Virus record (IMG/VR): IMGVR_UViG_3300030109_002521
Span: 1 to 43,734 of that record
DNA length: 43,734 nucleotides
Source: a virus
Reading direction: 5' to 3' (one strand)
A program made the position numbers and the translations under genes. The notes under the pieces were generated by a model. The model ran no database searches. It was not told the origin of the DNA and saw nothing but the letters and a program-made list of their open reading frames with translations. Shown in pieces: positions 4,953 through 21,260 of the stretch (positions are counted from its first letter, which is position 1; every line of letters starts with the position of its first letter).

Positions 4953-7250
4953 TTATTGCTTTACAATTTTTCTTATAATAGTTCGGCTTTTGTATGCTAT
5001 ACACACTGTATACATCCCTGGAGCCCATAGAGACACCTCTATTGCATTAACATTATTTTTAGACGCTATCATACGTCCAGAGTAATCAAACACGTCTATA
5101 TCAACGTTTTGATTTATACTTAATATATCGCTAACTGGATTAGGGTATATAACTAGGTCATCGCCAGCTAATATTGCTTCAATACCAGTAGCAGCGCAAT
5201 AGTCATAAGTTTGTTGACAAGTGTTATCCCAACCCTCGTCACAGCAATACGGGTCTGCTTGTATTACCCAAGCATAACACATATCATTTAACCAATATGG
5301 TTCGCCTGGTCCTGTAATGCAGTCAGCTGCGTATAAGCAGTTACTAGCCGCTTCATTAGCATTAGGGTTATAGTTAAATGCAGCTGGGTCCATGCAGTCG
5401 ACAACCACTTCCTCGCACGACCCATTATCAGTATTAGCAGTTGGATCATAATTAAAGGCGCTACTATCAGTACAGCCATAAATGTAAGGAATACAGCTGC
5501 CATCTTCAGCGTTAGCTTCCGGATCATAATTAAACATTGTTGCGTCCGTGCAACCGTAGACAAAAGGTATACAACTGTCATCGTCAGTGTTAGCGGTCGA
5601 GTTATAGTTAAAAGCAAGTGGGTTCGTGCAGCCTAAAACTACAGGTATACAACCCTCGTTATCAACGTTTGCTTCTGGGTTATAGTTAAATGCCTCTTCG
5701 TCCATGCAGCCAAATACAGCTAACGTCTGACAGTCTCCGTTATCGTAATCAGCTTCATAGCCTTGCGTATAATATTCTAAGTAACCTGCTTGAGTACAAC
5801 CAGCTTGATAGTAGCAACTACCGTCCTCTGTGTTTACATCAGCATTATAATTCTGCGCCATCATGTCTGTGCAGCCGTATGAATAAGGCTCGCAACTGTT
5901 ACCACAATAAGGCTGAAAGTGATATACTGGCCAGCTAGGCGCTTTAAAAGGCTGCAATGCGCCTTGTCCGTTATCTAAGAACGGGTTTTGCCCTTCAGCT
6001 AATAACGTATCACCATTCTCATTTGTTACAAGTATAGAGTTATGTAACGTTTGAAAAGCTAATTCTTGTGCCGACGACTGTTGACCACCATCTTGGAAGT
6101 AGTATATATCAACCTCTTCGTCTTCGTCAAGCATAATATCCCACGACTCTGAGAATATACCAGGTCCTATAGTAAACAACCATTGTTGATCTCCTTGCTT
6201 CATACCTACACCTGACATACCCCATCCATCACCAGCATCATCTTCTAACGTTAGTGTTATAGAGCAAGGGCTATTGTTATCAGATATAGTAGCTAGGCTA
6301 TCGTAATTAAAAGCCTCTGGATCTAAGCAACCCCATACGTGTAGTGTTTCACATGTGTCTTGAACTGTAGCCAGTGGATTATAATCTACATAGTCGTCAT
6401 CCATACAACCAACCACGTCAGGTGCTGGTGGACAAGGCTCAGTAAATATAGGTCCAGAGTATTCTGTGTTACCAGTAAACTCGCTGAACGCTAGATCTTC
6501 TAGCTCCCATATAACGCTATCACAAGCTGTAATAACACAAGCGCCGTCTTCACCTCCTGATGCAGAGCCATTTAACCCATCACCAAACTGATCTATTAAT
6601 ACTAGCTCAAAGCCTAACGCAACGCAGAAGTCATATGTATAGGTTACTAGTTGATCACCAAAATCAAACTCACCAGGTATAACCTGTTCATATAACTGGC
6701 CATCAGATAAGTTAACGATATTGAAACCTGTTTCACTAGGCCATGTATCAAGAGTTAACTCCATAGTAACTTGAGTCTCAAGGCTATCGCACTCTATAAT
6801 CTCACAGCTACCATCATCTTGGTTAGCCCATGGATTATAGTTGTCAGCAGCCTCGTTCATACAACCAAGCAACACAGGTAGACAAGGGTCTAGTATAAAA
6901 GGTATTGTGTCTATAGCAGTATCAAACTCATAGTTGAACTCTTCAAGCCCACAGTTATTTGTTATTCCAAAAAAACCTTGACCAAACGAGCAGCATATCC
7001 CATCGCCAAACGAGTCGTACATAATAAAGCTATACTCACCAGCAGGTAAGAAAACCATTATGTTTGTTAAGCTGTTGTCTGCCAGTGGTGGGCTTACAGC
7101 GACTGTGTTGCTGTCTGCGTTGATTATTTCCCACGATGATTCACCACCGTAGTTATCTGTCTGAACAGTAACATTTAGCCAGCTAGCGTCACTTGGTTGA
7201 GCAAACAAAGCCAGCGGAGCTAGCAATAAAAATAATAAAAAATTTTTCAT
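4953..7250 (-). CDS. Secreted Cys-rich repeat protein with T9SS type A sorting domain (765 aa)
   Basis: Residues 1-18 are a signal peptide (MKNFLLFLLLAPLALFAQ). Three beta segments follow, each with a GDG phrase (FGDG near 81, FGDG near 222, AGDGWG near 339). About ten Cys-flanked units of the form GC-(T/M)-D-x-x-A-x-N-Y-(N/D)-P-x-A-N-x-D-D/N-G-S-C lie at residues 129-638, then a Cys-rich stretch. Residues about 700-765 match the Por secretion C-terminal sorting domain (TIGR04183 type): IYPNPVSD, then VFDYSGRMI, WAPGMYTV and a basic end IIRKIVKQ. Known biology: such domains direct export by the Bacteroidota-only type IX system, with removal and surface anchoring. A phage gene of this kind would put a viral protein on the infected cell's surface. 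Its ATG overlaps the stop of a 39-residue gene (ATGA). Confidence 0.85.
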   Translation of the reverse strand: MKNFLLFLLLAPLALFAQPSDASWLNVTVQTDNYGGESSWEIINADSNTVAVSPPLADNSLTNIMVFLPAGEYSFIMYDSFGDGICCSFGQGFFGITNNCGLEEFNYEFDTAIDTIPFILDPCLPVLLGCMNEAADNYNPWANQDDGSCEIIECDSLETQVTMELTLDTWPSETGFNIVNLSDGQLYEQVIPGEFDFGDQLVTYTYDFCVALGFELVLIDQFGDGLNGSASGGEDGACVITACDSVIWELEDLAFSEFTGNTEYSGPIFTEPCPPAPDVVGCMDDDYVDYNPLATVQDTCETLHVWGCLDPEAFNYDSLATISDNNSPCSITLTLEDDAGDGWGMSGVGMKQGDQQWLFTIGPGIFSESWDIMLDEDEEVDIYYFQDGGQQSSAQELAFQTLHNSILVTNENGDTLLAEGQNPFLDNGQGALQPFKAPSWPVYHFQPYCGNSCEPYSYGCTDMMAQNYNADVNTEDGSCYYQAGCTQAGYLEYYTQGYEADYDNGDCQTLAVFGCMDEEAFNYNPEANVDNEGCIPVVLGCTNPLAFNYNSTANTDDDSCIPFVYGCTDATMFNYDPEANAEDGSCIPYIYGCTDSSAFNYDPTANTDNGSCEEVVVDCMDPAAFNYNPNANEAASNCLYAADCITGPGEPYWLNDMCYAWVIQADPYCCDEGWDNTCQQTYDYCAATGIEAILAGDDLVIYPNPVSDILSINQNVDIDVFDYSGRMIASKNNVNAIEVSLWAPGMYTVCIAYKSRTIIRKIVKQ
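5337..6866 (-). repeat. Ten Cys-bounded Asn/Asp-rich repeats inside the T9SS protein
   Basis: Protein repeats of about 21 residues start near residues 129, 280, 307, 459, 485, 514, 540, 566, 592 and 619. The last five or six are in tandem with about 26-residue spacing; the earlier ones are separated by beta domains. Example cores are AFNYNPEANVD and AFNYNSTANTD. The 5' and 3' Cys of each unit probably form a disulfide, and the acidic D-x-D-G-S loop resembles a calcium site. Such repeats are common in secreted proteins of marine Bacteroidota. Confidence 0.8.
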
Positions 7251-7366: not shown

Positions 7367-7735
7367 TTAAAAATCGCTATATATTATTTCATCAACTGCG
7401 TTTTGCACTTCTTTACGCGTAGCTTCTATTTGCATCATGATGTTAGCTTGAAACCTTTCAACTTCTTTTCCGTTAAACACAATAATAGTAGGTACTACTA
7501 CGATCTCATAGTCAGACTGATAAGTACCCTCGTCAATGTTCACATTCATAACCTCACAGTCAGTAAGTTTGTCTAGATAATCTACACTGTTACTTGCGTT
7601 CCAGCTAGCGTTAAACTGTACAACGCAGATATCACTGTTACACATGTTCTGGCTAAACGCAGTACCGGCTACAAACATACATAACATTAAAAGCACGTAT
7701 GCTATTACTGTTCTAAAGTTCATCGTATCTTCCAT
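7367..7735 (-). CDS. Exported thioredoxin-fold protein lacking the CXXC active site
   Basis: Signal peptide at residues 5-29 (FRTVIAYVLLMLCMFVAG then TAFSQ). The remainder has thioredoxin-fold order: strand VVQFNASW, helix, strand VMNVNID, the cis-Pro strand VVVPTIIVF (Pro82), strand KEVERF and a C-terminal helix. Where thioredoxins have W-C-G-P-C, this protein has W-N-A-S-N-S, so disulfide exchange is not expected. The remaining cysteines (32, 37, 60) lie elsewhere. Start at 7735 gives MEDTMNF; a start at 7723 (MNFRTV) is as likely, because GGAAG within the first codons sits just ahead of it. Probably periplasmic; binding or scaffolding role inferred. Confidence 0.75.
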   Translation of the reverse strand: MEDTMNFRTVIAYVLLMLCMFVAGTAFSQNMCNSDICVVQFNASWNASNSVDYLDKLTDCEVMNVNIDEGTYQSDYEIVVVPTIIVFNGKEVERFQANIMMQIEATRKEVQNAVDEIIYSDF

Positions 7736-7742
7736 GATTATT

Positions 7743-8033
7743 TTATTTTGGTTGATTAGATCCTATACCTTTAGATTTATGTTTAGCATCTTGAGATTTA
7801 CGTTTAACTTTTGATTCGCTTCCACCCCTCATCTCGCCACGAGTCAAACCATGGCTATGGTATTCAATAGGGAATGTTAAACCATTTCTATTTTCCCATG
7901 TTTTAGGTTTAGATGACTTATGATCTTCGTTTACTCGCACCCAGCCTGAGGGTGACGCACCTGTTTTTACGTAATCCTTAAATGCCGACGGGAAGTTCCT
8001 ACGCATCGGGTTGCTTCTCATTTTAAATGCCAT
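7743..8033 (-). CDS. Small basic protein, unknown (96 aa)
   Basis: A hydrophilic protein rich in Lys, Arg, Ser and Gly, starting MAFKMRSNPMRRNFPSAFKD and ending in a very basic segment (KVKRKSQDAKHKSKGIG). The opening MAFKM is also used by the 94-residue protein at 8873-9157. No known fold is recognised. It belongs to a run of short co-directional genes between the outer-membrane protein and the lysis region. Binding to nucleic acid or to an acidic partner is suggested only by charge. Confidence 0.65.
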   Translation of the reverse strand: MAFKMRSNPMRRNFPSAFKDYVKTGASPSGWVRVNEDHKSSKPKTWENRNGLTFPIEYHSHGLTRGEMRGGSESKVKRKSQDAKHKSKGIGSNQPK

Positions 8034-8035
8034 GA

Positions 8036-8320
8036 TTACTTTAGTTTATCAATTTTTTCTTCAATACGATCCATGTCCTCTTTCAGTTCTTTAACATCTT
8101 CACCAGTAGTCTTAATTGTCTGTCGAATCAATTGATCTTTCATATCAAACTCCATGCGAGTCACCTCTGGTGGAGGTGGTTCAGGTAGCTCTTTCGCTAA
8201 AGCTATATCAGCTTGCAGCGTAAAATATAAACCAATTAAGGCTGCTAGTCCAGCGCCTGCCATGCCAATTGTTTTGAGGTCTAGTGTTACTTTAGTATCC
8301 TCTCCTATTTGTTTAGCCAT
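8036..8320 (-). CDS. One-helix membrane protein with coiled coil; holin or spanin candidate (94 aa)
   Basis: A short N-terminal tail (MAKQIGEDTKVTLDL) precedes one hydrophobic helix at about residues 17-38 (IGMAGAGLAALIGLYFTL). A Pro-rich turn (PEPPPPE) and a charged heptad-patterned helix (residues 58-94) follow. One membrane pass plus an outward or inward coiled coil, in the neighbourhood of an M15 endolysin without a signal, suggests a lysis role: pinholin/holin or inner-membrane spanin. No lipobox partner was found. The start overlaps the upstream stop by one base (TAATG). A virion membrane-associated protein is an alternative. Confidence 0.6.
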   Translation of the reverse strand: MAKQIGEDTKVTLDLKTIGMAGAGLAALIGLYFTLQADIALAKELPEPPPPEVTRMEFDMKDQLIRQTIKTTGEDVKELKEDMDRIEEKIDKLK

Positions 8321-8595
8321 TATTTTTCTTTTTTACCTAGTCTCTTTCTTACAATGTTCATTGTTGTTTTCATTTTCTTTGCGTAAGAAGGTCTTTTCTT
8401 TCTATTGAAAACATACTGTTGGTTTAAGCTACTAATAATTTTAGATAAATTACCTTTTCTAGTTTTGATTAACCATGAAGCTAAAGCTGAAGCAGATAAA
8501 CTATTAAACTTGCCTTTAGCATCTGGCGCGTCTGAGTGCTTAAACTCACCCATTTTCTTTTTTAAAACAGTTTTTGTATACTTATAAACACCCAT
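8320..8595 (-). CDS. Small basic helical protein, unknown (91 aa)
   Basis: A Lys-rich protein starting MGVYKYTKTVLKKKMGEFKH, with a conserved-looking middle (LSASALASWLIKTRKGN, then QQYVFNRKKRPSYAKKM) and mostly helical prediction. No Cys, signal peptide or membrane segment. The gene is linked by one-base overlaps on both sides, so it is surely co-translated with its neighbours. Composition is histone-like, but no known DNA-binding motif can be named. Confidence 0.65.
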   Translation of the reverse strand: MGVYKYTKTVLKKKMGEFKHSDAPDAKGKFNSLSASALASWLIKTRKGNLSKIISSLNQQYVFNRKKRPSYAKKMKTTMNIVRKRLGKKEK

Positions 8596-8873
8596 TATTT
8601 CTCACCACATTTTTTACTTGGATCACCAACTTGTACCCAGTTTTCTTTTTTAAACCAGTCGCGCAGTGTAGCTCCTTTTCTACGGGCACCTTTAACGTTA
8701 GAGCTGCTAGATCTTTTATACTTACCACCTTTAGCAGCTTTACGTTTAGCACTAGTGACTTTGTCTCTTTCGCTTTGACTCATGCTACGAACTTTAGCGG
8801 CAGGTAAACAAACTTTTTTTGTGCCTCCGCCTTTTATTTTAGTAAATGGGTTACCTGCTTGATTGTAAACCAT
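8595..8873 (-). CDS. Small basic Cys-containing protein, unknown (92 aa)
   Basis: Starts MVYNQAGNPFTKIKGGGTKK. Contains KVCLPAAKVRSMS, a basic Ser-rich middle (KRSSSSNVKGARRKGATLR) and ends DPSKKCGEK. The two cysteines at opposite ends and the K/R-rich core resemble short proteins often carried in marine phage structural regions, but no function is established for them to my knowledge. Possible roles are DNA compaction inside the head or modulation of host nucleic acid; both are guesses from charge. Confidence 0.65.
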   Translation of the reverse strand: MVYNQAGNPFTKIKGGGTKKVCLPAAKVRSMSQSERDKVTSAKRKAAKGGKYKRSSSSNVKGARRKGATLRDWFKKENWVQVGDPSKKCGEK

Positions 8874-9157
8874 TATTTCTTTTTGCTTTTACCCATTTTA
8901 CCAGGTCCACCAGCTCTAGTACATCGCACACCCCAGCCAGAAGCATAAGCGCTAGGCCATACTTTAAACTTCTTTTTAGCGGCTGCTTTACATGGTCCAC
9001 TAATTTTACCTTTCATAGGAGAGGCCATTTTTGTAGGCGTTTCCATTTCTTTTATATGGCCTTCAATAACTTTAGCTTGCCTGCCGTGAGCCTTAACAGC
9101 TCCTTGTAATTCTTTAACAACCTCTTTGAGGTTTTTATATTTCATCTTAAATGCCAT
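8873..9157 (-). CDS. Small basic protein with VWPSAYASG motif (94 aa)
   Basis: N-terminal half is an amphipathic helix (YKNLKEVVKELQGAVKAHGR). The C-terminal half holds the conserved phrase CKAAAKKKFKVWPSAYASG followed by a second Cys and a GGPGK-KSKKK tail. Phrases of the KxxVWPSAYA kind recur in small phage and large-virus proteins of unknown function, from memory and not checked here. Shares MAFKM with the protein at 7743-8033. Net charge is strongly positive. Confidence 0.68.
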   Translation of the reverse strand: MAFKMKYKNLKEVVKELQGAVKAHGRQAKVIEGHIKEMETPTKMASPMKGKISGPCKAAAKKKFKVWPSAYASGWGVRCTRAGGPGKMGKSKKK

Positions 9158-9168
9158 GACTATTTATT

Positions 9169-9516
9169 TTAACATTTCCATCTGCGTCTAGCAGCTTTAC
9201 CTCTTTCACCAGTCCAGCCTCTTGATCTAGCACAAAATGATTTTCTACGTTTAGCAGCTTTACTACCTGGTTTTACATCACCAGTAACTGCTGTTTTTAA
9301 TTTACTACCAGGATTTTTGCGCTTATATTCAGCAACACCTTTAGTAGTCATACCCGCTCCTTCTTCTACAGTGCGAAAGTTTCTTCCTTTGCCTTTAGTT
9401 GTTTTTCTAGGCTCTGCTTTTTTAAGTGGTGAATTAAACCCACGACCTATACCTCCAGCTCTGCGTCTACCGCAAGATGTTACTGGAAAAGGATTATTTT
9501 TTTGAACATACGCCAT
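9169..9516 (-). CDS. Small Arg/Lys-rich protein with KPGSKAAKRRKSFCAR motif (115 aa)
   Basis: Very basic protein starting MAYVQKNNPFPVTSCGRRRA. The middle GMTTKGVAEYKRKNPGSKLK and the block KPGSKAAKRRKSFCARSRG form the recognisable core, and it ends RRRWKC. I recall the core as widespread in marine phage genomes without a settled function. No signal peptide or membrane segment. First of the six-gene small-protein run after the outer-membrane protein; a nucleic-acid-binding virion or early role is possible. Confidence 0.68.
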   Translation of the reverse strand: MAYVQKNNPFPVTSCGRRRAGGIGRGFNSPLKKAEPRKTTKGKGRNFRTVEEGAGMTTKGVAEYKRKNPGSKLKTAVTGDVKPGSKAAKRRKSFCARSRGWTGERGKAARRRWKC

Positions 9517-9519
9517 ATC

Positions 9520-10557
9520 TTAGAAGATTACATAGTTTGCTCCACACTTAAAGTTATACCACTCTCTATTCCAGTACTTATAGTATCTGCCTTCAAGAAA
9601 TACACCTACGTGTTTATTAAATCTGTGTCCATATATTAAACCAACTGAGTAGTCAAGCCATTGACCACCTACTGTATTGTGATACATATACTCGCCTCCA
9701 GTGTCGTAATGGTAGGGTAAAACGTTTCCCCATGTGTGGAACCAGAAGTCGTCTGTAAAGTGATAGAAGTCGAAGCCGGCAACCACCGAGTAATTCCATT
9801 GACGAGAGAGTTCACTTCTTTTTCTAGCAGTGTATTCAGATAAGATGTTAGGGATAGTGACTGCTTCCCAGACTTCAGTGTTTGTTGCAACGACTGTTCC
9901 GTCAGGAGCGAGGTACTCGCCCGTAGTAAGGTTGTGTGAATATCCTTCTTCAATTGCGAGGTAAGTATAGTGTATGTCTCCTGTCTCCAACTTCCACTCC
10001 TCAAGTGGATCATACCCGTAAGGTTCTGAGATACGTTGTGCGACACCTGCGTGCAAAGAAAACTTGTTACCAAGCTTGAGTCGAAACCGCTGCGATCCTT
10101 CAAAGTATTCAATGTCTGCAAACCCGTCTTCAAGGTATTCAACTTTTGCCATAAACTTATTTCCGATGTAACGAAAAAAGTGGTGTTGATTAAAAAACTG
10201 TTTACCTTGCTGTCTTTCGTATGTAACTTCTCCAAGAAACTCTATACCGTTACGCTTGCCTATATTAGCGTCAGCAGACCAAGATGTTTCTGATCCGTCG
10301 TAAAAAGCATTAGCCCTATTTTCGTAACCAAACCTAGCGATCTTACGTACACCCATAGACAAGCTATAGTCAAACGGTGTTGCTACAGTCTCTTGAGTTA
10401 ATCCACTAGTAACAGAATATATAGTTTGATCCGATACAGAGTTACCTCCATTTACAGCCGCATAGAATGTAGAAAACTTAAAAGCTTTCTTTATTTCTTG
10501 AGCTGTAGTAGTCATTGAAACCAATGCTACAAATATTAGTAATAATACTTTTTTCAT
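9520..10557 (-). CDS. Outer-membrane beta-barrel-like protein with signal peptide (345 aa)
   Basis: Signal peptide MKKVLLLIFVALVSMTTTAQ with a Bacteroidota-style Ala-Gln cleavage region. The mature part is Tyr/Phe/Trp-rich with alternating strands (for example FRYIGNKFMAKVEYLEDGF, SVGLIYGHRFNKHVGVFLEGRYYKYW) and ends in the aromatic GANYVIF, as outer-membrane barrels usually do. It would sit in the infected cell's outer membrane. Possible roles are superinfection exclusion, receptor masking, envelope weakening or virion association; none is proved. The central part uses CGG/CGA Arg and CTC/TTG Leu codons more than its neighbours. A 188-residue same-strand frame inside it is most likely chance. 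Confidence 0.72.
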   Translation of the reverse strand: MKKVLLLIFVALVSMTTTAQEIKKAFKFSTFYAAVNGGNSVSDQTIYSVTSGLTQETVATPFDYSLSMGVRKIARFGYENRANAFYDGSETSWSADANIGKRNGIEFLGEVTYERQQGKQFFNQHHFFRYIGNKFMAKVEYLEDGFADIEYFEGSQRFRLKLGNKFSLHAGVAQRISEPYGYDPLEEWKLETGDIHYTYLAIEEGYSHNLTTGEYLAPDGTVVATNTEVWEAVTIPNILSEYTARKRSELSRQWNYSVVAGFDFYHFTDDFWFHTWGNVLPYHYDTGGEYMYHNTVGGQWLDYSVGLIYGHRFNKHVGVFLEGRYYKYWNREWYNFKCGANYVIF

Positions 10558-13500
10558 TTATCTTTTTATTGTACGTCTTTTAACAGTGCGTCCAGAATCG
10601 CTAGACTCTCCATGCTTTTTCTTTTTCTTACTCTTTGAATCTTCTTCTACAACATCATCTGCACCTATGTTATACTTGCTCCAACCTAGTGACATTAATA
10701 TACGTTGCCATGTTTCATACCTTTCATCTAAAGCGCCTCTTGCATTTTGTACGTTTCTGTATATTTGAGATGTAGGTATATTTGTTGTAGCAGAGATATA
10801 ATTAGCTACTGCAGACCACATAGGATTATCAATATCAAATGTTTCCATTTCTTCAATAGCGTCTTTCTCGTAATTCAATGTTTTCTCAGCATTAACTATT
10901 TGTCTAGCTTTAATACCAAGCGGAGGAGATACGTTAAGCATTTCTAATAACACAGCGCTTTCATCTTTGTTGTAACCAGCGTCTCTTTGTTCCATGTGTT
11001 TAATAGCCATGTTTTTTATAGTAGCAGCTATAGCTCCATATACACCAGCTCCTCGTAGCACAGAATCTATACTACCATTGATCACACGACCTTTTTTCTT
11101 TAACATCTTCTCATCATCCTCATCTTCATCAAACATCATTGCAAATAGAGCTTGTTGTAATCCGTAGAATACTAAGTTTTGAACAGCTAGATAGTAAACT
11201 ATTCTCGAAGCATTTGACATATCACTCTGTAATTGAGTGGAATTAGGTGATGTTATTCTTCTGTTTTTAATATCTAAAAACGCTTTTTTAGCTAATCTAT
11301 TAAACTGAGAAGTTACGTTTTGGAAAGCTAGTATAAACTTACCAAGTGGTGAAGCTTGCTGCTGTGAAACCATATCAGGCCTAGCTGACTGCTGAGTAGC
11401 TTGGGCTGTCTCTTGGAAATCTAACCACGCTCGAGCTTCTGCTTGAGCTTTAGACATGCCTTGCTTCATGTATGTTTTAACTCTATTCCTATAGAAAGGA
11501 GCTCCACCGATAGCAATAGCAAAGCTATCAGCTATTTGAGTAGGAGTGAATCCCATACGTAACAATTCAGCAAGAGCTTTTTTAAGTGGGTTTCTAGAGT
11601 TTTTAATATTCGCAGCGAGTTCAGCTCCGTTAACGTCAGTACCTATGCCACCTCGTCTTTGCTTCATTTCAGGTGAATTAAATATCATAGCGAAATCAGC
11701 CCAAAATTGTTTTTGATTAGCAAAAGCTTTAGCAGCTGCAAATATATTATTGTCAGCAAAATTCAAGAAGTTAACTATAGACATTTGCTGTAGAACCGCA
11801 GATCTTATATTGAAGAACATGACGTTTGAAACAGCAGCGTTAATAAAGTTAACAAACGCATTTACTAACTTATTACTTCCGCTCGGTCTGTTTCTCCCAG
11901 TCTCGATTCTATAAAGCATATCCTCTATAGCTTCTCTAAGACCTCTTCCATATTCAGCTTCAATTTTATTTAAGTTTTCTTCAGAAAATATTATCTTTGC
12001 GTTCTCTAAAAACTCTGCTAGATACTTCTTTCTACCAATACGACCAGTAGCGTCATCAAGATCTGTTCTTAAATCTCCAGCTGTCCAAGAATCAGTTGGC
12101 TTAACAAAGCCATCTTGTCTTGAGATAGCCTCAATAGCATCAGCATAAGCTTTTAACCTAGGATCTGATTTTACTTTATTAGCAAGCTCAGTAACCTCAG
12201 TTTCAGTTAAACCTGGAACGCTGTGGCCATTTTTATTGAATAAATATACTCTAATAGCATCTTCAAAAGTAAAGTCGCTACCTGGAATTTTTCTTTTTAA
12301 CTTTTTCTTTACGTCTTTAAACTTTTTATTTAATTCCTTAAAATCATTAGCTATGCTTTGTTTAGCTACGTCTAACTCTCTAAAAGCTCTACTTAATGGT
12401 TTAATCAGGGCTTTTTCAAAAAACGCTCTATGAGCATCACCTCTTCTACCTGTACCCATAAAGTTATAAAGTAAACCAAGTAAGTCTTCGTGAGATGGAG
12501 GTATAAAGAATCTAAATCTACCTCTTTTTAAACCTCTTTTTCTAGCTCTTGCAGCTCCGATAATTTCATTAGCATCTACACCAGTAAGCTCTTCTAGCAT
12601 GTTATTAAATTGCTCGTTCATGCTTCGACTGAACTGAACTCTACCCTTCTGAACTGGTGATTTAACATCAAACTGATTTAGCATGTTTCGGACAGCAGGG
12701 ATGCTCGCTACCGATTGCGTTGCTTTTGCTTTACGCTTAGGAACCTTCGGCTTTGCTAATTCAAAATCAATTTGAGAACCGCTACTGTACTCGTATATAT
12801 TGTTTTTCCAGCCTAATTGCTTACTTAGTTTATCCATTAAAACAGTATAAACTCTAACTCGACTTTTATCTTTAGTTAAAGCGCTAAAACCAATTGTTTC
12901 TATACCAGGTTTTTGTTTTACTACATCTAACAGACCGTTGTAAACAGTGCTTAAAACTTTAAATTGACTACCAGTACCAGTCATTTCTTGAGTTACACCT
13001 GCTTCTGTAACTAAATCAAATTCTAGCTCAAAGTTAGCGTCATCTAGATCTGTAGGATAAAATGTTACGTTATAATTATTACCGTCTACGTTAAAGCTGG
13101 TAGTCATATAACCAATACTATCGGTTTTCCAGTTTAAATTCTGCTCAGTTGATAGGCTAAACTTTACTTTAGCTTGCTGAACTTTGGCCTTTACGTTAGA
13201 TCTGCTAAGCATGTTTTCAACTGCTCTAACATTTTGTATTGCGTCATCTGCAAAATAAAAATCGTTAAAACCTTCACCTATTTTACCAGCTATCCACTCA
13301 GCTTTAGCGCTAGCTTCAGACCTTCCAAGTCCAACTATGTTTTCTGCAGGTATATTCAAACCATTAGCATCTAAAAACTGCTTAATAGCAACTTGAGCTT
13401 CTGGCGCTCTAGCTGTAAGTATGTACATGTTATCTGTGCCAAACTTCTTAGCGAGCTTTAAAGCCTTATTAAACAAAGGAGCTATTTCGCCTTCAACAAC

Positions 13501-16500
13501 TTGGTTAAATTCAGAGAAATCAAACTTATGGCCTTCTTCAAGTAAAGTAGAACCTTGAGCGGCAAACTCTTCAGCGTTTAACTTAAACTGGTCTCCATCA
13601 GGCTTAGTTACTATAACCTTAGATTTAGTAGTAGCTAATGTGTCATCAAAGTCAAGAACTGATATACCTTGAGTTTCGTTATTCGCAGATCTAGAGAATA
13701 AAATGGCATCACTAAAAACTTGTTCGCTTTTAGATTTCTTTACTAGTTCCATTGCAGCAACCTCATCGCTCTGCATTAAAGCATCGAGTGCAGCAACATT
13801 ACCTATACTTTTATCTGAAGTTAAAGTTTCTAACGTAGACTTAGGTATTCCAGGTATAGCTCTAAATGAAAGTTTTTTGTTACCTGATTTTACTCTTCGT
13901 TTTGTTTTTCTTTCACCCTTCTTTTTAGTGTTAGTACCGTCAGTGTATATACTGTCTACAGTCCCGTTGTTAACATCAGCCATAGTAGCCGCTCGTTTCT
14001 CAGAGTTAGACCCTATACGTAAGGTCATAGTTCCTTTACCTTTTAGCACAGGTAAGTTTAACGGATTAGGTCCTGTACCCATGTGAAATAGGCCTCTACC
14101 CATTAACTGTATCGTATCAACAGGATAATTTGATTTTTTGTTATAGATCTCACTTATCACATCTAAACTTATTTCCATGGATGCAGACATAGCATTAATA
14201 TAACTAGAATATTCAACGCCATCAATTGTAACTGGAGTCTTTTTCAAATCATTGTAATACTCTGTTGGTAGAGTAGTTATATCTTTCCAATCGTAATTAT
14301 ATTTTTTCTTTAAATACGATTTAGCTTCTTTAATACCTTTTTGTACTTGATCTCCTAACGGTTTAATTTGATCGTTAAAGGTGTAGTCTTTTTTAACAAT
14401 AAAATTACCGTCTTCGCTGACTGCAAACGTAACGCTGCTATACTGAGCATTTGTCATTTTAGCTTCAATATTAAACGTTTTACCGTGTATTTTTATCTGC
14501 ACGTCAGGCAAACCACCCACTTCGCTAGGTTTACGTAGAGTAACTTCCATAGCATCTTTGCCGTACTTCTTTTCTATAGCTATAGCTTGATCAATCAAAA
14601 ACGCTTCATAAGCAATACCTCTTGTCCCTGCTTTTACTAACTTTCTAAAACCTTTACCAATAAATTCTATGTCGCTTTTGTCTTGTAATAATCCAGCTGA
14701 ATACAACTCGTTGTAAACAAAGTCTCTAACTTTTTTACTATACTTTAATCTATACTTAAGTAAAGCTTTACCACTGTTGTCAAACACGGTTTCTCCAGAT
14801 TCAATCAAGCTTTTTAAATCTAACGCAGCTTGAACTTGAGATCTTGAAAACTTAATTTGATCGTTGTAATTACCTTGAGTTTCTAGCTTCTGCCTATCAA
14901 GACTATTAGCAAACTCACGTAATTTAGCCTTAACTACCGCGTCTATATTAGTCGATGTTTCTGCAATCTCTGTGTCGATAGCTTGTTTAACTATAGCTTC
15001 CCCTATTATTCCAGCTAATCCTTTTTGTCTAGCTTTTAGTTTATTATAGTGTGATTGAGCTTTAACGTCGCTTGTGGTGTCTGTAAAGTACTTTGTAAAT
15101 TTAGCTTTATTAGTTTCTATCTTAAATACTGCTTTTCTAAAATTACTATCCTTTTTAAGACTAGGCTTATCGGCTTTCTTAGTCTTCTTGTCTTCTACGC
15201 CAATTTTAGTTAAATCAAATAAGTTTTTATAGTTGTTCTTTATAGTGGTAACATCAAGACCCGAGATTATATCTTCATAAGCTAAAGCTAAAAAAGCTTT
15301 ATACTCATCACTAACTATTATCTTTTCATTCTTAGAATCAAACGAAATACTACCCATCTCTTTTTGAACAGCTTTAGTAACGTCTTTTTCTATAAGCTTT
15401 GTTAGTTGTTGCTCTAGATTTGCTGGGTTTTGCTCAATAAGCTCAGCAATTTTTAGCTGAGTCCTAAGACTTATAATCTTTTTGTTTTCTAAATTTACTT
15501 TAGCTAAACTAGTAAGTATTCTTTGCTTCTGTTGTTTTTTAGTTTCAGTTTTCTTAGTCTCTGTAGTATCAGGTATTGTTTCAGATATTGTTCTACCAAG
15601 ATTATCTTGAGCATCTAAACTTTTTGTTCTAGATCGCTCTTGACTTTCTATAGCTAACTCTTTCTTTGCAACTAATCTAGCGAAGTTTTTATTAGCCATT
15701 AAAAACTCACCAACAGTAACTGGTCCAACAGCGTCACCCTTTCTTTCAGCTTGTGGATCGTAGTTTATTAAACGCTCGCTTAGCTCTCTAATAACTTTAT
15801 CTCTTTCTTGCTTACTTGGCACAATTGATTTAACGTAGCTATTAATAGCTCCACCGTCATTTAATATAGAATTAAGTATTTGCTCAAACGCATCGCTCTC
15901 TTGGAAAGTTTGCTTGTTATACTCTCTTCCTGCTTCAACTATTTCGTTTTGTGCTGCTTGCTCAATGCTGTTCACAGCGTCTACAGCTCTTGATCTAGAA
16001 AACTTAACACCCTGATCTACTTGAGGAGACCCTATTTCTACTGTACTTAACTTAACGCCACGAGGTGCATTTCTACGACCAAGTCTTCCTTCAACACCTA
16101 GCGCTGCTAAAGTACCAACATTATCTCTACCTCTAAAATCTTTATTTGTGTCATCAATCCATTTGCTTAACAAGTCAAATGTGGCTTGATTCATATCAGG
16201 ACTTCTAACAAGTTTAAATTGATTTCTATCTGTTACTTGAACATTAAAATCAACAGACTGCTCTTTCGTTAAACCGGTAGAATCAACTCCAAAATCACTA
16301 ATACCAGTGGCTGTTCCACTCCAATATCCACCAGGTTGAATCTGTAGACCAGCTCTGTACGCACTATCCGCCCAATTGCTAACTACTGACGGACTTGATA
16401 AACTACCTGTCAGAGTTGTGTCTCCTACTCTAGCAGATCTAGAAAACTGAGTGTCAGTAGCAGTTGTACCGCCTTCGGCTGCAGCTATAGCTCGCTTGCT

Positions 16501-18705
16501 TAACTTACCTTCTTTTACGTTCTTGCTGTACTCTTTCATAAAGTTGTAAACGGCTCTACCGTTTGCAAACTCTTTTTTATAACCAAACTTTCGTAATATT
16601 TCTTGTATTGTATTAGCTAGCTTGCTAAATACGCCTTCGTTAAAAGTAATTTCACCTTTTTCTATAGCATCGGAAAAAGCTGTAAATATTTCTTCTGAGG
16701 CGAATATAGCGTCACCTTCAAGTCCATAGCTATCTTTTAGTCTTTTTCTAACTGCCTTAACTTGTTTTTTTGTTAAAACACCTATAAAGCTTTTTCCAAG
16801 TTTAATTCTGCCAGCGGGATCAAGACTCTTCATGTGCTTGCCTAAAATACCATGAAGTACCTCGTGTGATCCTACGGTGATGGCGCCTGTTTTACCAGCT
16901 ACATCTTTATTAATAAAAATAGTATCACCAGCTATAAAACCATCAGAACCTGATACATCTTGCTCAGCGATTAAATCTATTTGATTATCAGCATTTTCAG
17001 GTTTAGCGTTATGCTCTTCAGCCATCTTATTATGCTCTTCTCGCATCGCGTCAAATGCTGACTGAGCATCAGTATCATTATCAACGACTTTTACGTCTTT
17101 ACCTATTTGCTTTCCCGCAGTCTCAGCAAAAGCTATAGTTTCAGACAACACTGCTTCACGTCTAGCTTTTCTAACTTCAGCAGCTTGTTCAGTGGCTGCT
17201 ACGTCTGTAGCTCCCTCATACTTGCCTATAATATCGCTAATTTCTTTTTCAACAGCATCAAGAGTTTCTTGAGCTCCTGGCACGGCTTCTATACCTGTTT
17301 TTTCAACATCAGCTTTTGCTTGTCTACGCTTAGCGTCTAACTCAATAAGTTTATCTCTATCAGCTTGATCAGTTATTTTGCTGTCTATTTGAGAGTCTAT
17401 AATCGCTTTCTTCTGTTTTTTAGCAGCTAATTTACCTATGCCAGTAAAATCATTTTCGATTTTTATATCAGCCATAGCGACGTCAATATCGTCAGCGGTG
17501 TCGATAAAATCTTTCATCGTCGCGTAATCTACCTCTACTCCAGCTAGTTTATACGTTGGTGTTTTAGTGCTTAATAGAGCTGCACCTACGCTAATAGGTC
17601 CTACAGCTCCACCGGTCACAGCTTCAAAGCCAATCTCAGCAGCGTCCATTTCTTGATCAGCAGCTAATCTACCAGCAACCTCACCTACACCGCCACCAAT
17701 ACCTTCTACACCTAAACCAGCTCCAGCGCCAGCTGTTCTTCCTAGTTTTACACCTCGCTTTGTAGCGGTAGCTGCTGTTTTACCACCTATTCTGGTTCCA
17801 GCTTTAACAGTTTTCATGACACCTTTTGCTACTCCCGTAGTAACTTTACCGGCAATACCTCCACTTAACGCTTCTATAGAACCAATAGAAAGCCCTCTTG
17901 CAACAGCTCTATTTCTTATCTTTGTACCCTGCGCACTTTCTAATAACTCTTTAATATTTTCATCAGTGAATTCTTTGCCTTGCTCATGAAGTTCTGTTTC
18001 TATAAGTTCGCCAAAAGTCAATGCTGATTCCATAGAATAGCCAAGCCCACCAAGCGCGCCTGGAAGAGTGCCTGCTACTGCGCCTACAGGAACTGTAACT
18101 TCAGCAAAAGGCCCACCAGCTAAACCAGCGCCAGCACCTGCTGCAGCTCCAATACCTGCTCCAGCAGCCATAGAAGCAAACGCATCGTCAGGATTATCAA
18201 AAAGAGTACCAACCTGAGTTGCAAGTGATTGAACAAAAAGCTCAGTCAAAAGCATTGGATCGTCTTTTACACCCCTGAAAAAAGCCGCCCAAGTTGATCC
18301 CTCAGCTTGATATTTTTTAGAAAACTCTTTCATACCCTCTGACTCAGTATATCTAGACGCCTCGTCAGCTTTAGCCTGTATAAACTCTTCAATAACCTCT
18401 TTAGTAGGCGCACCACGCTGCTTAAGTAAGTTGGTAGCTTCTCCCGTAGAACTAGCGGCAACAAAGCCTCTACCTACCCAAGTTTGATCAAACCAATTAA
18501 CTTTAGGAGCGTCTTCTTTTTCAACGCCAATAAGCGTAGAAAAATCTTCTATACTACCCTCGTAACCTGTATCTTTGAAATATGTAAAACTATCGTTTAA
18601 CGCGTTGTCGTTAGTAGCTATCAAGGCTCTATAATCTTGTAAAGTGCCTTTATAACCAGTCTTAACAAAGTGATCGTACGCGTCTTTTAATGCCTGTTCA
18701 TTCAT
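10558..18705 (-). CDS. Giant polyvalent virion/ejection protein: zincin, PD-(D/E)XK nuclease, HAD and GNAT-like regions (2715 aa)
   Basis: Order seen: two 25-residue N-terminal repeats (5-29 and 35-59; TGYKGTLQDY / TGYEGSIEDF); a Gly/Ala-rich hydrophobic segment (179-224); a zincin site HEVLHGILGKH (His614, Glu615, His618, His624); coiled-coil-rich stretches; a PD-(D/E)XK nuclease core (Glu1367, Asp1401, E1414-A-K1416); a HAD core (D1685-F-D-D-T, ILTAR, FADD 1818-1821); a GNAT-like region (about 1855-2005); and a long helical C-terminus with a membrane-like segment (IVYYLAVQNLVFYGL) and basic tail. FSRS motifs lie at 754, 902, 1286, 1670 and 2025, with FSLS at 1849. Multi-enzyme architectures of this kind are known as polyvalent proteins of phages and mobile elements. 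Following 225- and 620-residue partners, it sits where T7 gp16 would. Probably packaged and ejected with DNA. Gene directly abuts the next one. Confidence 0.85.
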   Translation of the reverse strand: MNEQALKDAYDHFVKTGYKGTLQDYRALIATNDNALNDSFTYFKDTGYEGSIEDFSTLIGVEKEDAPKVNWFDQTWVGRGFVAASSTGEATNLLKQRGAPTKEVIEEFIQAKADEASRYTESEGMKEFSKKYQAEGSTWAAFFRGVKDDPMLLTELFVQSLATQVGTLFDNPDDAFASMAAGAGIGAAAGAGAGLAGGPFAEVTVPVGAVAGTLPGALGGLGYSMESALTFGELIETELHEQGKEFTDENIKELLESAQGTKIRNRAVARGLSIGSIEALSGGIAGKVTTGVAKGVMKTVKAGTRIGGKTAATATKRGVKLGRTAGAGAGLGVEGIGGGVGEVAGRLAADQEMDAAEIGFEAVTGGAVGPISVGAALLSTKTPTYKLAGVEVDYATMKDFIDTADDIDVAMADIKIENDFTGIGKLAAKKQKKAIIDSQIDSKITDQADRDKLIELDAKRRQAKADVEKTGIEAVPGAQETLDAVEKEISDIIGKYEGATDVAATEQAAEVRKARREAVLSETIAFAETAGKQIGKDVKVVDNDTDAQSAFDAMREEHNKMAEEHNAKPENADNQIDLIAEQDVSGSDGFIAGDTIFINKDVAGKTGAITVGSHEVLHGILGKHMKSLDPAGRIKLGKSFIGVLTKKQVKAVRKRLKDSYGLEGDAIFASEEIFTAFSDAIEKGEITFNEGVFSKLANTIQEILRKFGYKKEFANGRAVYNFMKEYSKNVKEGKLSKRAIAAAEGGTTATDTQFSRSARVGDTTLTGSLSSPSVVSNWADSAYRAGLQIQPGGYWSGTATGISDFGVDSTGLTKEQSVDFNVQVTDRNQFKLVRSPDMNQATFDLLSKWIDDTNKDFRGRDNVGTLAALGVEGRLGRRNAPRGVKLSTVEIGSPQVDQGVKFSRSRAVDAVNSIEQAAQNEIVEAGREYNKQTFQESDAFEQILNSILNDGGAINSYVKSIVPSKQERDKVIRELSERLINYDPQAERKGDAVGPVTVGEFLMANKNFARLVAKKELAIESQERSRTKSLDAQDNLGRTISETIPDTTETKKTETKKQQKQRILTSLAKVNLENKKIISLRTQLKIAELIEQNPANLEQQLTKLIEKDVTKAVQKEMGSISFDSKNEKIIVSDEYKAFLALAYEDIISGLDVTTIKNNYKNLFDLTKIGVEDKKTKKADKPSLKKDSNFRKAVFKIETNKAKFTKYFTDTTSDVKAQSHYNKLKARQKGLAGIIGEAIVKQAIDTEIAETSTNIDAVVKAKLREFANSLDRQKLETQGNYNDQIKFSRSQVQAALDLKSLIESGETVFDNSGKALLKYRLKYSKKVRDFVYNELYSAGLLQDKSDIEFIGKGFRKLVKAGTRGIAYEAFLIDQAIAIEKKYGKDAMEVTLRKPSEVGGLPDVQIKIHGKTFNIEAKMTNAQYSSVTFAVSEDGNFIVKKDYTFNDQIKPLGDQVQKGIKEAKSYLKKKYNYDWKDITTLPTEYYNDLKKTPVTIDGVEYSSYINAMSASMEISLDVISEIYNKKSNYPVDTIQLMGRGLFHMGTGPNPLNLPVLKGKGTMTLRIGSNSEKRAATMADVNNGTVDSIYTDGTNTKKKGERKTKRRVKSGNKKLSFRAIPGIPKSTLETLTSDKSIGNVAALDALMQSDEVAAMELVKKSKSEQVFSDAILFSRSANNETQGISVLDFDDTLATTKSKVIVTKPDGDQFKLNAEEFAAQGSTLLEEGHKFDFSEFNQVVEGEIAPLFNKALKLAKKFGTDNMYILTARAPEAQVAIKQFLDANGLNIPAENIVGLGRSEASAKAEWIAGKIGEGFNDFYFADDAIQNVRAVENMLSRSNVKAKVQQAKVKFSLSTEQNLNWKTDSIGYMTTSFNVDGNNYNVTFYPTDLDDANFELEFDLVTEAGVTQEMTGTGSQFKVLSTVYNGLLDVVKQKPGIETIGFSALTKDKSRVRVYTVLMDKLSKQLGWKNNIYEYSSGSQIDFELAKPKVPKRKAKATQSVASIPAVRNMLNQFDVKSPVQKGRVQFSRSMNEQFNNMLEELTGVDANEIIGAARARKRGLKRGRFRFFIPPSHEDLLGLLYNFMGTGRRGDAHRAFFEKALIKPLSRAFRELDVAKQSIANDFKELNKKFKDVKKKLKRKIPGSDFTFEDAIRVYLFNKNGHSVPGLTETEVTELANKVKSDPRLKAYADAIEAISRQDGFVKPTDSWTAGDLRTDLDDATGRIGRKKYLAEFLENAKIIFSEENLNKIEAEYGRGLREAIEDMLYRIETGRNRPSGSNKLVNAFVNFINAAVSNVMFFNIRSAVLQQMSIVNFLNFADNNIFAAAKAFANQKQFWADFAMIFNSPEMKQRRGGIGTDVNGAELAANIKNSRNPLKKALAELLRMGFTPTQIADSFAIAIGGAPFYRNRVKTYMKQGMSKAQAEARAWLDFQETAQATQQSARPDMVSQQQASPLGKFILAFQNVTSQFNRLAKKAFLDIKNRRITSPNSTQLQSDMSNASRIVYYLAVQNLVFYGLQQALFAMMFDEDEDDEKMLKKKGRVINGSIDSVLRGAGVYGAIAATIKNMAIKHMEQRDAGYNKDESAVLLEMLNVSPPLGIKARQIVNAEKTLNYEKDAIEEMETFDIDNPMWSAVANYISATTNIPTSQIYRNVQNARGALDERYETWQRILMSLGWSKYNIGADDVVEEDSKSKKKKKHGESSDSGRTVKRRTIKR

Positions 18706-18706
18706 A

Positions 18707-20569
18707 TTATTGAGGATTATACTGCGCTCCGCTTCCCTGCGTTACTCCAGAATCTATATCAGCCTGCGTTCTATTCTTAAGCTCTTCTTTAGCTTCGTTG
18801 AACGGCGGGAGCGACATTAACTGGTTAAACATAGCTATGTTCCAATCTTGATCTCTATTAGTTTGGAAACTAAATCTAATAGCATTACCAACTCCAGCAT
18901 TAGTATCCATGTATTCACCCATACCATCTATCAACTCTTGAGTCCACTTCATCTTATCTCCATTGGCATCCATCATAAACATAACGTCGGATTGATTAGC
19001 CCACCAACTGCCTTCATCTAAATAGTAACCCCTTCCATCTTGAGGGCGCATATTGTACTTTTTATTTAATTGATCTGCAGCATTTCCAGCGCTTTGAGAA
19101 CCATCAGGCGCAAGCCAATCTCCTGATTCAAGTGTTGCTTCACCTTTTAAGTTAGCGTCTTCAATAGTGTTTGTTCGAGCGCTTGTAGATGTCCAAACAA
19201 ACTGGTTAGGTGGATCTCCTTTATCTGCACCTTCTTTATCAGCTACTTCATAACGACTAAGTTCATTACCGTCACCATCTGTATACATACCCGTATCAGG
19301 ATCAAATTTATATGACCCGTAGTTACCAGTAAAGTCTTCACCTCGATCAATATGAGCTCTCATCTGCTCAAACTTCTCAGCATGAACCCAACCAATACCA
19401 GGCATGTTAGCTCCTACGTGACCGCTTTTTTCATCACCACCTTCACCACCTCCTGTAGGTCTATCTCTAACACCAAAGTCAAATGCTTTTCTAGCTTCTG
19501 TGTCAGCATAAAATTTAGCGGCTGCTTTATGCGCAACTCTACGTTGACTGGCATCAGGATCAGTAAGAGCCTTAATCATAGCGTTAACGTTTTCTTCGTT
19601 AACAAAGTCTGCGTCGTCAATATCACCGTCACCATCGTAGTCAAACTGGCTAGCATCCATGTCGTTTAAAACTTGTATTACTTCTTTAAACTCAGGGCTA
19701 CTAGTATCTTTCAGCGTGTCAACATAACTTTTTTCACTCCAACCCATTGGGTGGTTTATCATGCTTTTAAACTTATCTGGTGACTGATTAAACGTCGTTT
19801 CCATATCAGAAGATATCCTGTTATATACTTCATCAAAATTAGCTTTAGGATGCTTAGTAGCCCAATCTTGCCATCCAAAAATTACGTCATTTTGCTTTGT
19901 AATAAAATCGTAATCTTTTTTAGTACCGTTTATTTTCTTTTGTATATCGAATATAGTACCTTCTATTGTTTGTTCTTCACCAGCTTCATTAGTAAACTTA
20001 TAAGAGTATACTGTTTCACCTTTTTCGTTTTTAGTTTTACTAAAGCCAGGATCTGTTTCTTCTTCAGCAGCATTTTTAGCCACTTGGTTTAGAAAATTAG
20101 TGTAGTCAGCACCTAATTGATTTGGATCGTGAAGATTATTTTGTAAAGTACTTAACACGTCTGTTTTAGCAGCGTCTACATTAGCAGCAGTTTTTATTTC
20201 TTTATTTATTTCGTACATTAAATCTTCTCTCTGCTTCTTTCCCTTTCTACCAAATGGTATCTCTTTCATGCGAGCTCTATAGTCTTCCATTTTGGCTTGC
20301 ATCTCTTGGCGCTCAGTTTGACTTAGCTCCCCGTTATTGAGCTTAACTCCAAAAGCATCAATAGTATCTCGTAGCTCACTACCAGCTATATCTGCTGCTA
20401 AAGCTGCTTTTTTAAAATTAGATTCCATACTATCCAACAGATCACCACGCGCTTCTAGCATACTGTCTAGTGACTTCGTCATATCAGCTGGGCCCATAGA
20501 CCTAGCAAGACTACCTGCCGATGCTACTAACGTAGAATCTGCTCCTATATTCATTCCTGTTGTTGCCAT
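18707..20569 (-). CDS. Internal virion / ejection protein B candidate with EF-hand-like loop (620 aa)
   Basis: Largely helical N-terminus (1-165), a small beta insert (about 183-215), then a perfect 12-residue EF-hand-type loop at Asp310-Asp321 (DYDGDGDIDDAD) preceded and followed by helices. The C-terminal half is Asp/Gly-rich with mixed structure. No signal peptide. It lies between the 225- and 2715-residue genes with 1- and 13-base gaps, matching the size order of T7 gp14, gp15 and gp16. A virion-internal partner of the giant protein is therefore inferred; sequence homology to gp15 is not visible. Confidence 0.65.
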   Translation of the reverse strand: MATTGMNIGADSTLVASAGSLARSMGPADMTKSLDSMLEARGDLLDSMESNFKKAALAADIAGSELRDTIDAFGVKLNNGELSQTERQEMQAKMEDYRARMKEIPFGRKGKKQREDLMYEINKEIKTAANVDAAKTDVLSTLQNNLHDPNQLGADYTNFLNQVAKNAAEEETDPGFSKTKNEKGETVYSYKFTNEAGEEQTIEGTIFDIQKKINGTKKDYDFITKQNDVIFGWQDWATKHPKANFDEVYNRISSDMETTFNQSPDKFKSMINHPMGWSEKSYVDTLKDTSSPEFKEVIQVLNDMDASQFDYDGDGDIDDADFVNEENVNAMIKALTDPDASQRRVAHKAAAKFYADTEARKAFDFGVRDRPTGGGEGGDEKSGHVGANMPGIGWVHAEKFEQMRAHIDRGEDFTGNYGSYKFDPDTGMYTDGDGNELSRYEVADKEGADKGDPPNQFVWTSTSARTNTIEDANLKGEATLESGDWLAPDGSQSAGNAADQLNKKYNMRPQDGRGYYLDEGSWWANQSDVMFMMDANGDKMKWTQELIDGMGEYMDTNAGVGNAIRFSFQTNRDQDWNIAMFNQLMSLPPFNEAKEELKNRTQADIDSGVTQGSGAQYNPQ

Positions 20570-20582
20570 GTTGTTTTTATCA

Positions 20583-21260
20583 TTAAGGTATTAATCCAGC
20601 CGCAGTAGTAGCCATATTCCCAAAAGCCTGTGCGTTTTGCATCTGCATCTGTATACCTGCTTGCTGCATAGCCATTTGATTTTGCATAGCTTGTTGTCTA
20701 CTTGCTTGAGCGCCTGCTGCGCCTTGAAACTGCATGCCAAGTAGAGTAGCTTGCCTTTGCATTTCTGCTTCTTGTACCATTTGTTCACCTTGTCTTTGCG
20801 CTAGATCTACTCCTTGCGCACCTTTAGCTGCTGCTAATTGGTTTGCTTGCTCTTGACGAGCTATATCCGTAGATATCTGCCTAGCTTGCATAGCCCCTTG
20901 TCCAGCCATTGCTTGAGCTAAACTAGCTATACCAGTAGCGCCGGCAGCTCCTTGCATAGTCTGCATTATATTAGCTCTTTGCTGCGCTCCACGCTCTGCT
21001 TGAAATCTAGCGGCTTCCTGATTTACAGTAAGATCTTCAAACACATTCTGCATACCTGCATATGGATTTACAAACTCAAAATCTCTATAACGCTGTTTCT
21101 GTTGTTCTAGCAAGCCCATTTGCTCTTTCTGAAACTCTAGCTGATCAGCAGACTGCTGCGCTGCTAAAGCGCTAGCTTCTCTCTGAGCTCTACGCCCTTT
21201 GCCCGCGGCGTTTGCTTGCAGAAGCATGCCTCCTGCTGCTATTGCTGTTGTCCAACCCAT
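20583..21260 (-). CDS. Ala/Gln-rich internal virion (ejection) protein A candidate (225 aa)
   Basis: N-terminal hydrophobic Gly/Ala segment (GWTTAIAAGGMLLQANAAG), then a long helical, Gln/Ala/Met-rich protein (MQMQNAQAFGNMATTAAG at the end). This composition and length match small DNA-ejection proteins such as T7 gp14 and P22 gp7/gp20, which line the ejection conduit through the envelope. It shares one base (TAATG) with the upstream GNAT-like gene. Function is assigned from composition and order, not from a specific motif. Confidence 0.68.
   Translation of the reverse strand: MGWTTAIAAGGMLLQANAAGKGRRAQREASALAAQQSADQLEFQKEQMGLLEQQKQRYRDFEFVNPYAGMQNVFEDLTVNQEAARFQAERGAQQRANIMQTMQGAAGATGIASLAQAMAGQGAMQARQISTDIARQEQANQLAAAKGAQGVDLAQRQGEQMVQEAEMQRQATLLGMQFQGAAGAQASRQQAMQNQMAMQQAGIQMQMQNAQAFGNMATTAAGLIP

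Follow-up and report, generated by a model that had tools for sequence, protein, structure and literature searches.

The window, that is, the whole analysed stretch of 43,734 nucleotides (positions 1 to 43,734 of IMG/VR virus record IMGVR_UViG_3300030109_002521), contains an uninterrupted ORF of 2715 codons at positions 10,558–18,705 of the minus strand. This giant gene ends a virion cassette located entirely on one strand, in which it is preceded by the genes for terminase, portal protein (37,434–39,851), major capsid protein (MCP), a 2795-aa muzzle-like tail protein (23,276–31,663), a 137-aa protein, and two ejection-type proteins of 225 aa (20,583–21,260) and 620 aa (18,707–20,569). The 137-aa product looks GNAT-like by eye and had no match in Pfam. 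The portal protein ties the phage to Cellulophaga and Flavobacterium podoviruses, with Elemovirus and Callevirus being the nearest among cultured phages, and the C-terminus of the 2795-aa protein matches crAss_MUZ_C (E-value, 7.4e-11).

Several genes for exported or small proteins lie downstream of the giant gene, also on the minus strand. A 345-aa exported, barrel-like protein with no family match is encoded immediately after it (9520–10,557), and is found directly downstream in 65 of the relatives' loci (median gap, 7 nt). It is followed by a row of small, mostly Lys/Arg-rich proteins (7743–9516), one of them with DUF6321, which are perhaps DNA-associated virion proteins, and by a 122-aa exported thioredoxin-like protein (7367–7735; sub-threshold Pfam match) that is kept in 46 relatives. 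A 765-aa protein (4953–7250), with homologues in 34 of the relatives' loci, begins with a signal-like sequence and has, at its C-terminus, a sorting domain for type IX secretion (T9SS) (Por_Secre_tail; E-value, 3.4e-11), and judging from these signals is apparently meant for export via the T9SS of the host.

An earlier note on this DNA, made from the letters alone, had described a 2715-residue ORF behind 225- and 620-residue genes in a Bacteroidota-type podovirus. The ORF stands as described, with the minus strand, which the note did not give, now added; both neighbours are real, and the proposed kind of virus is borne out by the portal matches, the crassvirus muzzle domain and the T9SS tail in the neighbouring protein. 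Based on these sequence features, the source, a marine phage, is a crassvirus-like Bacteroidota podovirus with a muzzle domain.

Viral contigs were scanned with the whole giant protein and with alignments of its parts, which yielded hundreds of matches. Among them, 94 ORFs of 1905–3310 aa contain the N-terminal/zincin, HAD and C-terminal parts, and 90 remained after removal of redundancy; the latter count takes in the window's own protein and leaves 89 other relatives. The ORF list, the motif positions and these at least 90 non-redundant full-length members together support the ORF as a single gene. Synteny is strong, with a homologue of the 225-aa protein upstream in 87 loci and a muzzle-type gene upstream in 46. 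In bacterial genomes, there were just 11 matches, all in MAG contigs, several of which are labelled Bacteroidota; most likely, these are phage contigs binned with bacteria. A collection of 50,697 phage records contained no match to the giant protein, a Pfam search with the whole protein gave no domain above the cut-off, and a PDB search with the whole protein gave nothing useful. A weak Nuf2 match lay below the cut-off and was treated as chance.

The N-terminal region (aa 1–480; 17,266–18,705) is Gly/Ala-rich, contains a hydrophobic stretch at aa 203–221 according to hydropathy analysis, and is kept in the relatives. It is homologous to the N-terminus of the 3859-aa syntenic giant of ctfjg026 (E-value, 2.6e-13) and, by analogy with N4 gp50, represents a putative membrane/ejection part. 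The following region (aa 480–753; 16,447–17,268) includes HEVLH at aa 614–618 and E672; the HExxH and the downstream Glu are invariant in 32 aligned zincin regions. It is related to the zincin region in the giant of Flavobacterium phage elemo (E-value, 5.5e-6). The AlphaFold model of the region is confident (pLDDT ~90), and the assignment rests on the motif, because no solved zincin was found among the best 50 Foldseek matches listed; a sequence comparison with solved structures found none either. On this motif, the giant protein is assigned a zincin metallopeptidase site.

Two modules of the chain, both behind the zincin, were given no enzymatic assignment. The first (aa 758–901; 16,003–16,434) has a 40% identical relative in locus L284, directly before the HAD domain, and no counterpart in the segment alignment with the 89 full-length relatives. 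The second (aa 906–1285; 14,851–15,990) is mostly helical in its model. A sigma-70-like reading of it was attractive by eye and was rejected, since hhalign to sigma region 2 gave an E-value of 0.28, equal to that of unrelated controls. Separately, a module located after the zincin in L003, L028, L035 and L110 shows weak likeness to sigma-70 region 2 (hhalign E-value, 4e-4; probability, 35%); if true, a sigma-like domain borne in the virion would be notable.

The next module (aa 1290–1669; 13,699–14,838) is predicted from sequence conservation and modelling to be a PD-(D/E)xK nuclease of the restriction-endonuclease fold, with the core PD1400–1401...E1414-x-K1416. The PD...ExK residues are invariant in 13 nuclease relatives sharing 20–60% identity, and the model best matches HhaI in Foldseek (probability, 1.00), followed by the homing endonuclease I-Ssp6803I, Hjc, RecU and VRR_NUC. 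Similar to HhaI, Hjc and RecU in fold and in the catalytic D...E-x-K, the module differs from them in having no sequence similarity, and in being either a swappable module or a stand-alone phage protein of ~270 aa. Such stand-alone homologues are encoded by unrelated marine phages (L262–L283), and distant ones are found in cyanophages such as P-SSM2, and in P-TIM40.

The HAD region (aa 1674–1848; 13,162–13,686) contains the three catalytic motifs (DxDxT, S/T and DD), matches phrog_415 polynucleotide kinase (E-value, 6e-5), and on this basis is a predicted PNK-like phosphatase. Of 53 relatives scanned, nine carry a Zeta-toxin/PNK-type P-loop kinase in the HAD region, which by association supports a role in nucleic-acid end repair. 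In the two cases inspected, L019 and L149, the kinase interrupts the HAD domain behind DFDDT, a nested arrangement unlike that of T4 Pnk. The window protein shares the PNK-type HAD with T4 polynucleotide kinase-phosphatase, but lacks the kinase.

The GNAT module (aa 1853–2024; 12,634–13,149) was identified in the AlphaFold model of residues 1848–2715, which matches AAC(6')-Ib, SpeG and other GNATs in Foldseek (probability, ~1.0). Its predicted topology, b-b-b-a-b-a-b-b, is that of GNAT structures, so that the model points to a GNAT fold and a predicted acetyltransferase. The end of the module repeats the linker of the HAD tail (NML....VK..VQ.....FS.S), and the two copies bracket the module, the arrangement that an insertion at a junction of this kind would leave. 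The chain ends in an all-helical module with a basic tail (aa 2029–2715; 10,561–12,621). Comparison with BFVD matched it to the C-terminal parts of many proteins annotated as polyvalent (E-values, 4e-12 to 4e-4; 11–16% identity), and it had no match among PDB structures in Foldseek; LeuT-like matches (probability, 0.1) were discarded as noise.

The motifs quoted in the earlier note (HEVLHGILGKH at residue 614, D1401...EAK1416, DFDDT at 1685, ILTAR at 1762 and FADD at 1818) all sit at the residues given there. They are not chance occurrences: HExxH, DFD[DE]T and TAR are kept in all 90 members and [AV]DDA in 89, and the nuclease core is invariant in its 13 relatives. The note's reading of the chain as a virion-cassette protein of the polyvalent kind, with mixed enzyme domains, was likewise borne out, with zincin motif, PD-(D/E)xK, HAD and GNAT all found, the last of these through the Foldseek matches; the opposite picture of one non-enzymatic rod is contradicted by structure prediction of slices, which returned nuclease and GNAT folds. 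What the note had missed is that its enzymes differ in status. When the segments between motifs were aligned end to end with those of the relatives, the core segments were found in 84–89 of the 89, the helical module in 27, the nuclease in four and the GNAT in three. Thus, the N-terminus/zincin, HAD and C-terminal parts form a core common to at least 90 members, nuclease and GNAT are optional modules, and the modules between the core parts are swapped; 156 accessory segments from the 90 proteins fall into about 50 clusters.

The note's domain list also left out the recurrent F-S-[RK]-[ST] junctions that lie between modules, almost only after the zincin. Six copies occur in the giant chain: five are FSRS, at aa 754–757 (16,435–16,446), 902–905 (15,991–16,002), 1286–1289 (14,839–14,850), 1670–1673 (13,687–13,698) and 2025–2028 (12,622–12,633), and one is the variant FSLS at aa 1849–1852 (13,150–13,161), all encoded on the minus strand. 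The number of FSRS expected from composition is 0.025. Across the 90 proteins, FS[RK][ST] was counted 165 times, against about 10.5 expected. Only one copy precedes the zincin (in 60,755 aa) and 164 follow it (in 168,216 aa), and the C-terminal module has one copy inside (in 59,509 aa). Homology breakpoints fall within 10 aa of the motif in 13.7% of cases, compared with 2.0% ± 0.7% when the motif positions are shifted (highest value in 200 shifts, 3.8%). The literature searches found no name for this junction motif.

The clustering of breakpoints at the motif, together with the duplicated HAD-tail linker on both sides of the GNAT module, would fit junctions that are only recombination scars, i.e., a DNA linker that promotes module exchange and has no function at the protein level. 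However, the motif is written in 50 different 12-nt spellings in which AGY and TCN serine codons are mixed, which indicates that it is conserved as protein, and in most relatives it is kept at the HAD/C-terminal junction, where no exchange occurs. The scar reading is therefore highly improbable, and as the sole explanation it is ruled out by the codon diversity.

Another possibility is that the motif is an uncleaved linker or domain cap marking safe insertion points, with the zincin acting as an effector against host proteins and the product remaining one beads-on-a-string chain. The junctions coincide with linkers in the models, where they fall within or next to linker-like segments of low confidence, and the fidelity of the motif is imperfect: 19 of the 90 proteins have no FS[RK][STAN], and junctions vary (NSRS, ASRT, FSLS). 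According to the available text of PMC5512222, N4 gp50 has an HExxH domain and yet is packaged unprocessed, which counts against processing; it stays intact and works as flexibly linked beads. On the other hand, a generic linker needs no specific tetrapeptide, while here F and S are kept as the neighbouring residues vary, and hardly any copies precede the zincin, even in proteins with a long N-terminal part.

Further evidence came from an independent set of different polyvalent proteins, those with LPD38, collected from bacterial genomes and IMG/VR. Their zincins show only remote likeness to those of the giant-protein family (hhalign over 40 columns), and an initial alignment of LPD38 proteins proved too divergent to scan with. 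Enrichment of [FY]S[RK][STNAD] over expectation was 3.0-fold in the 22 zincin-bearing proteins and 1.2-fold in the 18 without HExxH, some of which may be "zincin-free" through being cut by the 10-kb flank. For [FY]S[RKL], 65 copies were found after the zincin against 23.5 expected, and 27 before it against 24.4 expected. In 10 of 18 LPD38 zincin clusters, [FY]S[RK] is located at +135 to +205 from HExxH, where 0.6 would be expected; the binomial p of 6e-11 overstates independence, because many of these clusters share related linkers, and the truly independent cases are fewer than 10. LPD38 proteins with [FY]-S-[RK] directly after the zincin are seen in L338–L426, e.g., KETDKGVMLFSKS. The difference between zincin-bearing and zincin-free proteins again argues against the uncleaved linker, which we consider unlikely, albeit worth keeping in view.

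The gene position, after portal, MCP, muzzle and ejection-type genes, is that of late virion genes. Among cultured phages, Cellulophaga phage phi18:3 has a syntenic giant that follows 227- and 499-aa genes and is annotated as structural from MS/MS of virions, and elemo has a 3667-aa "structural protein" with the related zincin region after the cassette. The syntenic giants phi18:3 gp123 and phi38:1 gp101 showed no detectable homology to the giant protein, no zincin and no motif. The three-gene cassette resembles that of N4, in which the small pore protein gp52, the 644-aa tunnel gp51 and the giant gp50, whose N-terminus is a membrane part and whose domains are loosely linked, are encoded (PMC12633501). 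The sizes are 150/644/3500 aa in N4 and 225/620/2715 aa here; the 225- and 620-aa proteins have no PHROG or Pfam match, so that the agreement with gp52 and gp51 is one of size and order only. Similar to N4 gp50, the virion RNA polymerase, the giant protein has a membrane N-terminus, an HExxH domain and a large helical C-terminus with no known homologues; unlike gp50, it has no RNA polymerase and carries exchangeable nuclease, HAD and GNAT modules, and the likeness is without demonstrated sequence homology. A comparable arrangement, with large cargo proteins after the muzzle gene, is described for the Bacteroidota podovirus PhicrAss001 (gp45–gp50; PMC10172136), but the cargo there includes RNA-polymerase-related proteins, and no zincin/nuclease/HAD/GNAT chain is reported in the available text of that paper.

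Judged by analogy with these systems, the giant protein is probably the last of three ejection proteins and the largest of them, and its packaging and ejection are quite likely. That it is instead a structural or assembly protein, which remains inside the virion or works solely in the cell that produces it and whose enzymes are relics, would be in line with the annotation of cultured syntenic phages, where only "structural protein" is given. Since none of the modules tested shows any variation in its catalytic residues, and since the gene sits where ejection proteins are encoded and its product shares their domain plan, this alternative is very unlikely.

Taken together, the data lead us to propose, with a probability of roughly 0.5, that the giant protein is an ejected polyvalent protein whose cargo modules are cut apart at F-S-[RK]-[ST], most likely by its own zincin. 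The N-terminal region would help the protein to cross or sit in the inner membrane, and the modules behind the zincin would be cargo enzymes that fold independently, lined up one after another and closed by the conserved helical module with its basic tail. The F-S-[RK]-[ST] sequences between them would serve as processing sites, at which the resident zincin may cut, be it during head maturation or once the protein has been delivered, and the freed cargo could then target nucleic acids and proteins of host or phage at an early stage of infection. The enzyme activities and targets of the modules are inferred. For the individual steps, the motif distribution makes cleavage at F-S-[RK]-[ST] the leading reading, at about even odds, and cleavage by the protein's own zincin plausible at somewhat less than that.

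The cutting enzyme might also be another protease, of the host or of head maturation, as in the giant phages SPN3US and phiKZ, which trim ejected head proteins at the short motif A/S-x-E. However, none of the window's proteins that were searched could be recognised as a maturation protease, the motif hardly occurs outside the giant protein (the 620-aa neighbour has one FSKT), and it tracks the presence of a zincin in the unrelated LPD38 set; a different protease is thus improbable. A broader suggestion, still tentative, is that [FY]-S-[RK], located at the end of the zincin and repeated between the cargo modules, is the zincin's own recognition site and that polyvalent proteins with a zincin are, in several phage lineages, injected polyproteins that cleave themselves by a shared processing code.

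Phage polyvalent proteins were described as chains of 2–15 mixed enzymatic domains with a zincin MPTase as hub (Iyer et al. 2017, PMC5512222, available text). The giant protein agrees with that account in its mixed enzymes in one chain, its zincin, its late virion gene neighbourhood and its C-terminal helical fold. It differs from many polyvalent proteins in having no Pfam LPD match, its likeness being by fold only; LPD is treated there as a marker and not as a requirement. The fixed zincin/HAD/C-terminal core is the family's own, as are the recurrent F-S-[RK]-[ST] junctions, of which no mention was found in the same text. Thus, the giant protein represents a new family within an already known class, and the new element, as far as sequence comparison goes, is a repeated junction motif that is tied to the zincin and turns up again in the unrelated LPD38 proteins.

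The prediction, made in 2017 (PMC5512222), that zincin domains process polyvalent proteins has since been left open as to mode and timing, and a named four-residue junction at the borders of the cargo makes it directly testable. The motif also offers a simple rule by which giant proteins with poor annotation can be divided into enzyme modules fit for testing. For the phages themselves, the finding means that a widespread marine group infecting Bacteroidota carries exchangeable cargo enzymes.
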